64,000 nt of DNA, taken from the NCBI RefSeq assembly GCF_001955695.1, contig NZ_CP019236.1, positions 5,394,001-5,458,000 on the forward strand. The letters run 5' to 3'. The position numbers were made by a program, and so were the translations under genes. The notes beneath the pieces are model-generated. The model searched no databases. It had not been told where the DNA came from and saw only the letters and a list, made by a program, of their open reading frames with translations. Numbering within the stretch: position 1 is the first letter of the stretch; the number at the start of each line of letters is the position of its first letter. The stretch is from Rhodoferax koreense. Its GTDB lineage: Bacteria > Pseudomonadota > Gammaproteobacteria > Burkholderiales > Burkholderiaceae_C. Positions 46,702-59,449 of the stretch are shown piece by piece.

Positions 46702-47463
46702 GTGGCCACCGCCATCCTCAGCGCCCTGCCCGAGGAGCAGGAAGGCCTGGCCGCCCTGATGACGGACACCGAAACCGTACGGCATGCCGGGCGCGAGTTC
46801 CATCGGGGGCGTTGGCAGGGTGCGCCGGTGGTGTTCGCGCTGTCGCGCATCGGCAAGGTCGCGGCGGCGACGACCGCGGCGGCGCTGATCGAGCGTTTCG
46901 GTGTGCAGCGCATCGTGTTTACCGGCGTGGCCGGTGGCCTGCACCCCGAGGTGCGGGTCGGCGACACGGTGATCGCCGGCGAATTCCTGCAGCACGACAT
47001 GGACGCGACGCCGCTGTTCCCGCGCCACGAGATCCCGCTCTACGCCCGCAGCCGGTTTGGTGCGGACATGGCGCTATCTGCTACCATTTTTGAAGCAGCC
47101 ACTGCAGATAAAACGGGCGTCGGAGGCACTTTCGATGCCGAAACCATCCGTCGTTTCGGCTTGCAGGCGATGCGTGTGCACCGCGGCCTGCTGGTCAGCG
47201 GCGACCGTTTCGTGTCGTCCGCCGGGGAGGCCCGGGCCCTGCGCGAGGCCCTGCCGGATGCCCTGGCCGTGGACATGGAGGGTGCGGCCGTGGCCCAGGT
47301 CTGCCACGACTACGGCATCCCCTTCGCGGCGGTGCGCCATATTTCCGACCGCGCGGACGATGCGGCGCACGTGGACTTTCCGGCCTATCTGAAGGCGGTG
47401 GCCGCGCTGCAGGCCAGGGCGGTGATCACCCGCTTTCTTTCGGCGCAGGCGCAACGGCCCTGA
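46702..47463 (+). CDS. mtnN: 5'-Methylthioadenosine/S-adenosylhomocysteine nucleosidase
   Basis: A 253-aa MTA/SAH nucleosidase that cleaves adenine from MTA and SAH. Present are ILSALPEEQEGLAALM at the N-terminus, FTGVAGGLHPEVRVGDTVIA, the nucleoside site AVDMEGAAVAQVCHDYGIPF and the catalytic Asp in RHISDRADD. The GTG start at 46702 is 2 bp after the fadD stop. Residues about 127-144 (ATIFEAATADKTGVGGTF) are encoded by an A/T-richer segment matching one in benE, apparently an inserted repeat in the variable middle of the protein. Confidence 0.92.
   Translation: MATAILSALPEEQEGLAALMTDTETVRHAGREFHRGRWQGAPVVFALSRIGKVAAATTAAALIERFGVQRIVFTGVAGGLHPEVRVGDTVIAGEFLQHDMDATPLFPRHEIPLYARSRFGADMALSATIFEAATADKTGVGGTFDAETIRRFGLQAMRVHRGLLVSGDRFVSSAGEARALREALPDALAVDMEGAAVAQVCHDYGIPFAAVRHISDRADDAAHVDFPAYLKAVAALQARAVITRFLSAQAQRP
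47080..47132 (+). repeat. Intragenic dispersed repeat copy A (within mtnN)
   Basis: This 53-bp segment matches 58796-58848 in benE at 32 of 53 positions without gaps. Both start GCTA and share AGCAGC, GGCG and a TT end. It is about half G+C against roughly two-thirds around it. It is read in the same frame as the benE copy (ATIFEAATADKTGVGGTF here). The wording resembles a dispersed Burkholderiales repeat I recall, but that has not been searched. Confidence 0.6.
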
Positions 47464-47514
47464 ACCGGGCGGTCAGCGCCGGCCGCGCTGTCAGCGGGTT
47501 AGCGGGCCAGGGCC

Positions 47515-47967
47515 TCAAGGCCTGGGTGATGCCGTCGAGCGCGAGGCGTCGAGTTGCGCCTTGGCGCGCTGGGCCAGGGCGATGTCGCCCGGGGTTTCGG
47601 GGTTCCACGCCGGCACCGGCATGGGCCGTCCGTGCGAATCCACCGAGACGAACACGATCAGGCATTCGGTGGTGGTCTGCATCTGGCCGCCCTTCATGTC
47701 GCCGCTGCGCACCTCCACCGAGATGTTCATGCTGGTGTTGCCGGTGTAGGCCATGCGCGCCTCCACCTCCACCAGGTCGCCGATCATGATCGGATGGTGG
47801 AACCGGATGCCGCCCACGTAGACCGTGATGCAGTAGCGCTTGGCCCAGCTCGTGGCGCAGGCATAACCGGCTTCGTCGATCCATTTCATGACGGTGCCGC
47901 CGTGCACCTTGCCGCCGAAGTTGACGGTGTTGGGTTCGGCCAGGAAACGCAGGGTGATTGCAGACAT
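47515..47967 (-). CDS. Acyl-CoA thioesterase (YciA-like hotdog)
   Basis: A 150-aa hotdog acyl-CoA thioesterase. VNFGGKVHGGTVMKWIDEAGYACA holds the catalytic Asp region, and GGIRFHHPIMIGDLVEVEARMAYTGNTSMNISVEV is the family core. The ATG at 47967 is chosen because upstream codons add non-family sequence; its ribosome site is weak. It is a convergent neighbour of the fadD-mtnN transcript, which is of interest because it reverses acyl-CoA formation. Confidence 0.92.
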   Translation of the reverse strand: MSAITLRFLAEPNTVNFGGKVHGGTVMKWIDEAGYACATSWAKRYCITVYVGGIRFHHPIMIGDLVEVEARMAYTGNTSMNISVEVRSGDMKGGQMQTTTECLIVFVSVDSHGRPMPVPAWNPETPGDIALAQRAKAQLDASRSTASPRP

Positions 47968-48187
47968 TTTTTTCTCGCGGGGAAGATCGGTGCCGGCGAT
48001 TATCCGGGCTTCGGCCACAAATCCCGCCGCGCTTTTGTCCTCACCAGAAGACAGGCCACCGGACATTCCCATTCCCCCGGCGGGCCAAGTGTGTCAAAGT
48101 GTCATACGGTGATCCGCAGGACCAAAACGTGCAAACGTTTCTGCTAACCTTTCCCTTCAACATCCACTCAGCTTTGAAAGGCGCACC

Positions 48188-48505
48188 ATGGCAAGAACCA
48201 GTATCGAGTCCCAGGAACAATTGGTCGACGAAATCAAGGCGACCATCTCCGATGCGGAAGACATGTTGTCTGCCACCGCCGACCAGGCGGGCGAAAAGGT
48301 CACCAAGCTGCGCGCGCGCGTGCAGGCCCGCCTGCTCGACGCCAAGGCCCGCCTCATCGAAGCCGAAGAGCTGCTCATCGCCAAGACCAAGGCTGCGGCC
48401 AAGGCCACCGACGTCTACGTGCACGAGTCGCCATGGACGGCCATCGGCGTGGGCTGCGCGGTCGGCGTGGTGGTGGGCCTGCTCATCGGCAGCAACCGCC
48501 GCTGA
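48188..48505 (+). CDS. DUF883 family protein (ElaB/YqjD-like)
   Basis: A 105-aa ribosome-associated inner-membrane protein type. A long amphipathic helical segment (1-80, Ala/Glu/Lys-rich) is followed by the DUF883 signature HESPWTAIGVGCAVGVVVGLLIG and a short basic end (SNRR). YqjD and ElaB bind stationary-phase ribosomes to the membrane in E. coli. First gene of a trio with a YqjE-like and a YqjK-like protein. Confidence 0.93.
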   Translation: MARTSIESQEQLVDEIKATISDAEDMLSATADQAGEKVTKLRARVQARLLDAKARLIEAEELLIAKTKAAAKATDVYVHESPWTAIGVGCAVGVVVGLLIGSNRR

Positions 48506-58085: not shown

Positions 58086-58157
58086 GGGGAAGACTCCTGG
58101 TTTTCTGGGTGAGGTGAAGGGATGGCAAATTCTCAAGCAGAAGCCGCCCCGACGCCA

Positions 58158-58183
58158 ATAGAACCCCTATATGCCGGTGATAG
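58158..58183 (-). promoter_or_regulatory. OxyR-like site upstream of katG
   Basis: ATAG at 58158 and ATAG at 58180 are exactly 22 bp apart, as in the OxyR four-element motif. The intervening CTAT is present but displaced 2 bp from the ideal position. Located 73-98 bp before the katG start, in the divergent gap to benE. Confidence 0.35.
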
Positions 58184-58258
58184 CGCGCGGGGTCGCCGTC
58201 GCCTTGCCGGCCCCCCTTGCGCGATGCTGCGCCCGTCGCGCCCGGCACAATCGCGGCC

Positions 58259-59449
58259 ATGCGTTTTTTCAAAGACATCAGCCTTTCGGCCTTCACGGCC
58301 GGCTTCGTATCGGTGCTGGTCGGCTTCACCAGTTCGGTGGCCATCGTGTTCCAGGCCGCGCAGGGCTTTCACGCCACACCCGCGCAGACCAGTTCGTGGA
58401 TGTGGGCGCTGGGCCTGGGCATGGGCCTGTGTTCCATCGTGCCCTCGCTGTGGCTGCGCAAGCCGGTGATGGTGGCCTGGTCCACGCCGGGCGCGGCGGT
58501 GCTGGCCACGGCCGGCCTGGCCGGTGGTTTCGACATGGCCGACGCCGTCGGCGCGTTCCTGGTGTCTTCGGCGCTGATCACGCTGTGCGGCGTGACCGGC
58601 TGGTTCGAGAGGATCATGCAGCGCATCCCGGTGGCGATCGCCTCGGCGCTGCTGGCTGGCGTGCTGGCGCGCTTCGGCCTGCAGGCCTTTGCCGCGGCGC
58701 AGACGGCGCTGCCGCTGGTGCTGCTGATGCTGGCCGTGTACCTGCTGGGCAAACGCATCGCGCCACGTTATGCGGTGGTGGCCACGCTGCTGGTCGCTAT
58801 TCTTTACGTAGCAGCACGTGGAGAGATGTCTGGCGCCAGCATCACATTTGACTATGCAGTTCCAGTGTTCACCATGCCACGCTTCACCCTCGCCGGCACG
58901 GTGAGCCTGGCGCTGCCGCTGTTCGTGGTGACCATGGCCTCGCAGAACCTGCCCGGCGTGGCCGCGATCCAGGCCGCGGGTTATGGCGGGCCGGACGGCA
59001 TTCCGGTGTCGAAGGTGATCACGCTGACCGGCGTGGCCGGCCTGCTGCTGGCGCCTTTCGGCGCGTTCGCGCTGAACCTGGGCGCCATCACGGCGGCCAT
59101 CTGCATGGGCCGCGAGGCCCACGAAGACCCGGCCCGGCGCTACACGGCGGCCGTGTCCTGCGGCGCGATCTTCGTGGTGATCGGCACCTTCGGCGCGGCC
59201 GTGACGGGTTTGCTGACGGCCTTCCCCAAGGAACTGGTGATCGCCATCGCCGGCCTGGCGCTGCTGGGCACCATCGGCAACGGCCTGGCCGCGGCCGTGC
59301 GCGACGACGCCACGCGCGAGGCGGCGCTGATCACCTTCCTGGTCACGCTCAGCGGCGTGGCGATCGCCGGCATCGGCTCGGCCTTCTGGGGGGTGGTGGC
59401 CGGCGCGCTCGCCTTATTTGTGCAACAGTACGGTCGCCGCACGGCCTAG
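58259..59449 (+). CDS. benE: BenE family benzoate/proton symporter
   Basis: A 396-aa BenE-type permease with about 12 helices. MRFFKDISLSAFTAGFVSVLVGFTSS starts the protein, and WSTPGAAVLAT, FVVTMASQNLPGVAAIQAAGY and FGAFALNLGAITAAICMG are characteristic. Likely uptake of benzoate or a related aromatic acid, although no ben genes are adjacent. Residues about 180-197 (AILYVAARGEMSGASITF) are encoded by an A/T-richer segment matching one in mtnN, placed between membrane helices. Divergent from katG. Confidence 0.92.
   Translation: MRFFKDISLSAFTAGFVSVLVGFTSSVAIVFQAAQGFHATPAQTSSWMWALGLGMGLCSIVPSLWLRKPVMVAWSTPGAAVLATAGLAGGFDMADAVGAFLVSSALITLCGVTGWFERIMQRIPVAIASALLAGVLARFGLQAFAAAQTALPLVLLMLAVYLLGKRIAPRYAVVATLLVAILYVAARGEMSGASITFDYAVPVFTMPRFTLAGTVSLALPLFVVTMASQNLPGVAAIQAAGYGGPDGIPVSKVITLTGVAGLLLAPFGAFALNLGAITAAICMGREAHEDPARRYTAAVSCGAIFVVIGTFGAAVTGLLTAFPKELVIAIAGLALLGTIGNGLAAAVRDDATREAALITFLVTLSGVAIAGIGSAFWGVVAGALALFVQQYGRRTA
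58796..58848 (+). repeat. Intragenic dispersed repeat copy B (within benE)
   Basis: Matches 47080-47132 in mtnN at 32 of 53 positions without gaps, in the same reading frame (AILYVAARGEMSGASITF here). The lower G+C continues to about 58876. It lies in a loop region between hydrophobic helices of BenE, where extra residues are tolerated. Confidence 0.6.

Follow-up and report, generated by a model that had tools for sequence, protein, structure and literature searches.

Two A/T-richer segments in a 64,000-nucleotide stretch of the Rhodoferax koreense genome (the window), one inside a gene resembling mtnN and the other inside a gene resembling benE, belong to a dyad-symmetric DNA family, about 65 bp long, of which the genome has at least 150 dispersed copies. 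In benE and in all eight of the other carrier genes that we picked for alignment, the motif overlies existing codons and is not an element-size insertion, and in one sister species (genome G004) the motif is almost completely absent. Tentatively, and with somewhat less than even confidence, we read the family as a dispersed DNA signal that would be maintained in trans and work like DNA uptake sequences.

The first-pass annotation of the window had set 47080–47132 against 58796–58848 and described an ungapped match at 32 of 53 positions, about half G+C in richer surroundings and a shared frame. An exact recount agrees on each point, with 51% G+C in both segments compared to 69% (47080–47132) and 70% (58796–58848) around them, and both read in the same frame within their genes. 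Taken alone, the 32/53 match is weak. Position 58796 is the sole + strand place in the window with at least 32 matches to the mtnN segment, and the best match on the − strand has 28; 15 of 300 sampled low-G+C 53-mers of the window have a + strand partner equally good (32/53). The look-alike pair is real because a many-copy family exists, and not because of the pair match itself; the true copies are about 65 bp long, exceeding the 53 bp first described. An Rfam scan of the window returned no family reaching its gathering score.

The family was recovered with a core pattern built from the mtnN segment together with a Comamonadaceae repeat, a partly circular start. The pattern matched 44 places in the genome, compared to 6 for its reversal. 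Model R1 was made from 37 aligned copies (A1), its seed including the three from the window, and placed 150 of 150 scored candidates, from 4979 first-look candidates, at E 8.6e-5 or better. As R1 scored 150 candidates per genome, 150 copies is a floor, and the E-values of R1, like those of the model R2 used across genomes below, are rough. The decisive scores were obtained with an nhmmer profile trained solely on the 69 intergenic copies, its register still taken from R1. This profile gave 154 matches at or above 20 bits across 2.11 Mb of R. koreense sequence, while the same sequence reversed gave no match of at least 20 bits and two of at least 10. The 2.11 Mb were taken around known matches, so that densities in them are biased, and the controls were run on the same sequence. 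Across the 1993 called genes there were 69 matches of at least 20 bits against none after synonymous shuffling that retains every protein, and 97 against three at 12 bits or more. With the reversed-sequence and synonymous-shuffle controls nearly empty, chance similarity is rejected for the family; the dispersed repeat proposed at first pass exists, and the further copies on which that proposal depended are many.

The R. koreense consensus is roughly TGCTAttnatTtgATAGCTgcctgCGCAGatnnnatCTGCGCtggAGGCcgATTTggcTt, laid out as two adjacent inverted repeats, then AGGC, then an A/T tract (in rough pattern tGCTAY-N7-RTAGC, next GCGCAG-N7-CTGCGC, next GGAGGC and the A/T tract). Conserved positions extend across about 60 of the 65 bp, and a (G/A)TAG lies internally at model positions 14–17. 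Among the 150 R1 matches (69 on the + and 81 on the − strand), 67 lie within genes, 14 at gene edges and 69 between genes, yet gene calls cover 91% of the sequence and leave 9% non-coding; the earlier expectation of copies translated in frame inside unrelated genes, accompanied by intergenic ones, is thus borne out. Two of the six possible frames hold 51 of the 67 in-gene copies (31 in antisense phase 1, 20 in sense phase 0), and 37 of the 67 are antisense. Copies in tandem gaps mostly start close to the upstream stop codon (−17 to +23 bases for 43 of 50), and 33 of the 50 are oriented along the gene direction (p 0.03). Divergent gaps hold 8 of the 69 intergenic copies, compared to 254 of the 956 gaps of at least 50 bp overall (p 0.004).

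By itself the benE copy is marginal (13.0 bits, E 0.16, intergenic-trained profile); its membership is supported by its orthologues, whose copies score 21.6 (G002), 20.1 (G006) and 16.3 bits (G001) with the same profile and below 12 in G003 and G005. The orthologues share 74–88% identity in seven genus genomes, and a codon alignment places the motif at the orthologous site in six of the seven other genus genomes. The first-pass annotation had likened the segments to the palindromic elements of Rickettsia, which are repeats translated in frame in unrelated proteins and are insertions absent from relatives. This part of the proposal does not hold for benE, where the alignment of 12 orthologue rows (from 7 species, with five of them represented twice) shows no gap at the motif in any row. 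In G004 a similar protein stretch is present and the DNA motif is absent. At codons 181–200 the G+C content of third codon positions (GC3) is 0.35–0.55 in seven of eight species (0.40 in R. koreense), compared to 0.60–1.00 in other windows of the gene, and in G004 it is 0.80. The R. koreense and G004 genes are 0.62 identical in the motif window and 0.78–0.98 in other 20-codon windows, with identical codons at 3 of 11 shared residues in the motif window. An in-frame insertion in benE is ruled out by the gap-free orthologues together with the motif-free G004 homologue of similar protein stretch.

The family membership of the mtnN copy is secure (24.6 bits, E 3.7e-5, intergenic-trained profile; R1 rank 35 of 150, as a seed member), and same-site copies are present in G003, G005 and G006. 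The evidence on insertion is divided here. Against it, mtnN has the same length in three of its four closest homologues (L087–L089), the fourth, L086, being 3 residues shorter; in its favour, in the alignment to the Protein Data Bank structure, E. coli MtnN has a gap of 15 residues within the stretch covered by the motif. Because of this gap and an 8-residue gap at the 3′ end of the motif in three genus mates, an older insertion of part of the mtnN loop appears possible. The R. koreense mtnN is 70–74% identical to Variovorax homologues and 56–58% to genus mates G003, G005 and G006, in contrast to UvrA, at 85–87% in five genus mates; a horizontal replacement of mtnN would be a possible account.

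Table 1. Copies of the family in the window and the genes that bear them
Feature	Coordinates	Strand	Evidence and remarks
Family copy in mtnN-like gene	47079..47143	+	Sense, phase 0; A T I F E A A T A D K T G V G G T F D A E
mtnN-like gene (MTA/SAH nucleosidase), bears copy	46702..47463	+	Gene call; PDB matches to MTA/SAH nucleosidases; start codon uncertain
Family copy in benE-like gene	58795..58859	+	Sense, phase 0; R1 rank 78/150 (in R1 seed); codon alignment with orthologues
benE-like gene, bears copy	58259..59449	+	Gene call; orthologues; name from the first-pass annotation
Third window copy, intergenic	37375..37439	+	R1 rank 51/150 (in R1 seed)

The convergent genes 36307–37365 (+) and 37448–38620 (−) flank the third window copy, with 82 bases between them.

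Nine carriers, MtnN among them, were chosen by score and likely conservation and aligned to solved structures. LigA, WaaF, DXR and PurK are gap-free at the motif compared with their solved homologues, TruB (+4), PGI (+3) and TatD (+3) differ by a few residues, and a PccB-like protein has a net difference of zero with two small gaps, so that none of the eight carriers other than mtnN and benE has an element-size insertion. A Pfam scan covered 30 of the 76 in-gene copies scoring 18 bits or more. A domain judgeable across the copy was found in 17 of these 30 carriers, a count that omits three multi-part FAD-family domains and ten carriers whose copy falls beyond or on the border of the stretch listed, or for which only one of two stretches is given. 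The protein minus profile spans, which are net lengths and include PrmC_N under its curated cut-off, are −16, −9, −1, 0, +1, +3, +3, +5, +5, +6, +7, +7, +8, +13, +13, +14 and +22. A whole copy would add 21–22 residues, and the net difference is below 21 in 16 of the 17 domains; the +22 case is TatD, whose difference at the motif itself is just 3 residues.

At E 1e-4, R1 returned 150 of 150 scored candidates in seven of the eight genus genomes and 3 of 150 in G004. By UvrA, G004 is the nearest to R. koreense at 93%, with five others at 85–87% and G007 at 83% over a fragment. The benE and pgi genes of G004 are both without the motif. Further afield, R2 at E 1e-5 found a match in 61 of 160 genomes of the bacterial family, 47 of them with 8 to 32 of 32 scored candidates and 14 with 1 to 5, leaving 99 with none. 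A Y1 transposase gene is present in 120 of the 160. A single RAYT-like (repetitive extragenic palindrome-associated tyrosine transposase) Y1 gene (L295–L300) lies near gltB in six of the eight genus genomes, weakly matched in R. koreense at 23.5 bits, and was not found in G004 and G007. A motif copy near the Y1 gene reaches E <0.01 at five of the six loci, just three of them strong.

The same sites carry copies across species. All eight genus genomes except G004 have a copy at the same site in PGI, scoring 16.7 to 40.1 bits, and the GC3 of these seven genes is 0.13–0.40 inside the copy compared to 0.84–0.90 outside. Codons for shared residues are identical to those of R. koreense at 29 of 33 positions inside the copy compared to 63% outside (six species pooled), while in G004 they are identical at 1 of 6 at the site compared to 328 of 446 outside. 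DXR has a copy in all seven orthologues found (30.8–43.1 bits), the G004 DXR gene not having been found. A/T-ending codons should decay fast at a GC3 near 0.9, and their persistence at matching positions in seven species suggests that selection or drive still acts on the DNA and has halted in G004. The R. koreense pgi copy (L301, G000:C1:1300665-1300729) has 7 extra residues at its ends relative to six motif-bearing relatives and is more complete; it is fuller via added in-frame codons, and therefore indels can also improve a copy.

Furthermore, the copies show species dialects. An A at position 28 is found in 73% of 154 R. koreense copies and 85% of 13 G006 copies, compared to 12% of 25 in G003 and 6% of 31 in G005. 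At nine orthologous sites, position 28 is non-A in 17 of 18 G003/G005 rows and A in 24 of 24 rows from other species, the independent units being the nine sites because G003 and G005 are close kin. Seven sites came from a tblastx listing, in which many pairs matched via the element itself, and PGI and DXR were added; six are genic (mtnN, benE, PGI, DXR and two R. koreense genes) and one lies in a short called open reading frame, and a G006 row at site 19390, with its match in the opposite palindrome, is excluded. Near-identical copies are absent from the R. koreense set, in which the closest pair agrees at 49 of 65 positions (52 of 65 in G005), inside the column-shuffle range. The copies are not wholly independent, though no recent copying was seen.

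We suggest that a sequence-specific, trans-acting process rewards or spreads matches to the motif, and that within genes the signal would arise through changes to the codons already there, as far as the protein can bear them. The process would most likely be preferential uptake or recombination of signal-bearing DNA, by analogy with DNA uptake sequences. A bias of uptake or recombination is the process best known to yield signals that are dispersed within and among genes and form dialects; where the process is lost, copies would wear away, as in G004. A broader proposition, put forward with less assurance still, is that in many Burkholderiales a trans-acting system may imprint a 65-bp signal on spacers and on genes for housekeeping enzymes, namely DNA ligase, phosphoglucose isomerase, DXR and TruB. 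The signal would alter codons, and residues too, while adding no element-size insertion, would shift dialect in concert and would vanish with the system.

Several observations weigh against such a signal. For the putative uptake step, a length of 65 bp far exceeds that of known uptake signals. Copy spacing is no more even than chance: even spacing of the kind seen for DNA uptake sequences was not significant in G005, G003 and G006 (P 0.12, 0.11 and 0.16, respectively), and the R. koreense copies are, if anything, clumped along the sequence. The ComP_DUS pilin (PF16732) is present in 152 of the 160 family genomes, motif-rich or not, and as a candidate receptor it shows no discrimination. G004 is a 73% complete draft, although G007 at 71% completeness still saturates (150/150). 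The structurally aligned carriers were chosen as likely conserved enzymes, not at random, so that the sample favours alignable sites. In-frame indels where the motif begins and ends set PGI copies of different species apart, as an indel at the motif end does for mtnN copies, and the codon excess in DXR is small (43 of 63 identical inside compared to 61% outside). The mtnN site reaches 10 bits in 3 of 80 loci from other genomes (L153 25.0, L094 13.6, L087 10.7), and therefore the mtnN copy is not general outside the genus. Finally, the mean nearest-neighbour identity of copies is above that of shuffles in every set (42.97 compared to 41.66, standard deviation 0.15, in R. koreense). Shuffling within quality classes takes away part of this excess, the observed mean being reached in 0 of 300 such shuffles for R. 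koreense (five classes), 10 of 300 for its intergenic copies and 6 of 300 for G005; some copying or subfamilies could explain the excess likeness.

The first-pass annotation favoured a dispersed element inserting in frame. On this reading an old mobile element, resembling repetitive extragenic palindromes (REPs) or miniature inverted-repeat transposable elements, would once have moved into spacers and also, keeping the frame, into genes, and would have decayed afterwards. We consider this unlikely. The palindromic form, the intergenic enrichment, the position near stop codons and the scarcity in divergent gaps are all as for the REPs described in the available text of PMC3733652, and the mtnN loop longer than that of E. 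coli, the slight excess likeness among copies and the motif copy beside the Y1 gene in several genus genomes fit as well. The Y1 gene is also more frequent in motif-rich genomes (42 of 47 compared to 78 of 113 others, p 0.008, uncorrected for kinship), but five of the 47 have no Y1 match. Against this reading, benE and the eight other carriers have no element-size insertion, the net difference stays below 21 residues in 16 of the 17 Pfam domains, and near-identical copies are not seen; nor does decay predict conserved A/T-ending codons or concerted dialects.

The main mechanistic rival to a trans-maintained signal is templated replacement, in which single-stranded DNA or RNA from a copy of the element would pair with a partly similar site and convert a tract of equal length, by gene conversion or in a recombineering-like manner, perhaps via the Y1/RAYT enzyme. 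It would account for same-length overlay on motif-compatible sites, for the concerted change of dialect across orthologous sites, for the short indels where the motif ends and for the residual likeness among copies. However, unconstrained positions should then be copied too, and the best pairs stay near the shuffle range; we think this route, with its hypothetical donor and enzyme, rather improbable. A lower probability again attaches to an element conserved as RNA structure, such as a transcript 3′ end, a processing site or a small RNA site, for which the stop-codon clustering, the gene-directed orientation in tandem gaps and the inverted repeats could speak. Most in-gene copies are antisense, and RNAalifold returned almost no structure in the R. 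koreense and G003/G005 sets. Stem cells pair at 87.9%, compared to 85.6% in shuffles and 15–46% in slid controls, and the only clear A-T/T-A flip is at pair 28–38; support for RNA structure as a maintained feature is therefore weak. Chance, or protein-level convergence on Ala-rich helices in A/T-richer patches, might pass for the benE score alone and for the frequency of 32/53 partners in the window, but is refuted for the family by the nearly empty controls and opposed by the similar G004 protein stretch that lacks the DNA motif, and is most improbable.

Parts of the family have been printed before. Among potential novel motifs in a 2017 survey, the available text of PMC5217627 gives GCTTAT(N)5AAGCG from Acidovorax ebreus and ATAGCT(N)22CAAAAG from Polaromonas naphthalenivorans, with 114 and 125 copies, mostly intergenic and near genes, some genic, and of unexplained function. 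At model position 26 the first pair falls inside copies in both relatives (G005, 4 of 5 matches; G003, 3 of 6; 7 of 11 together), and the second does so at model position 14 with its single match in each (2 of 2); neither pair occurs in the R. koreense or G006 sequence examined. The first-pass suggestion of a repeat belonging to this bacterial group is thus upheld by these two fragments. In that text each stands by itself as a spaced motif of one genome, with no 65-bp element, codon overlay, dialects or lineage loss described. Beyond them, no description of the family was found in the literature searched, mostly papers available without subscription.

DNA uptake sequences (DUS) of Neisseriaceae and uptake signal sequences (USS) of Pasteurellaceae are likewise dispersed in and between genes and form dialects, and their origin by point mutation or recombination is debated, as far as the accessible parts of PMC3630211 and PMC2397512 go. 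The present family resembles them in its many copies on both strands maintained as DNA, in its in-gene copies without insertion and in its species dialects. DUS are about 10–12 bp (10-mers in those sources), in contrast to 65 bp here, and uptake would be an analogy. The GTAG/CGTC REPs with RAYT genes of PMC3733652 are, in the part available, palindromic, lie downstream of genes and also occur within DNA ligase and TruB genes. The family shares all of these features and has a Y1 gene in six of eight genus genomes. Those REPs differ in being 20–40 bp with the tag at one end, compared to 65 bp with an internal (G/A)TAG here, and the in-gene REPs are treated there as insertions, while no element-size insertion is found here. 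The main text of that paper does not name Variovorax, Polaromonas, Acidovorax, Delftia or Comamonas; it does mention the Rickettsia palindromic elements. With the latter the family shares in-frame translation in unrelated proteins, but the tested sites here (benE and the eight carriers) are overlays. The BRE repeat of Bordetella and other Betaproteobacteria, including Comamonadaceae, also has some copies within coding sequences (PMC3110155, as far as available). At about 90 bp, 69% G+C in Bordetella and often in tandem, it differs from a dispersed family of about 65 bp with window segments at 51% G+C, and identity with BRE is rejected on size and composition, by description and not by sequence letters.

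If a motif of this length is widely kept atop enzyme codons, a DNA-level process would set codon choice and some residues in housekeeping proteins of this bacterial group. G004 and R. koreense together would provide a natural loss experiment, and finding a repeat translated in frame in unrelated proteins would not by itself mean that it was inserted. To our knowledge, uptake-signal systems classically comprise two families, and a signal maintained in trans here would, if true, be an uptake-signal-like system beyond these two.

Along the R. koreense genome, strand and position of the copies show no clear polarity. In the single-contig genome G126 (C1), among the matches listed, all those between 1.44 and 3.13 Mb are on the − strand and one at 0.41 Mb is on the + strand, a pattern among the best listed matches that may reflect replichore polarity.

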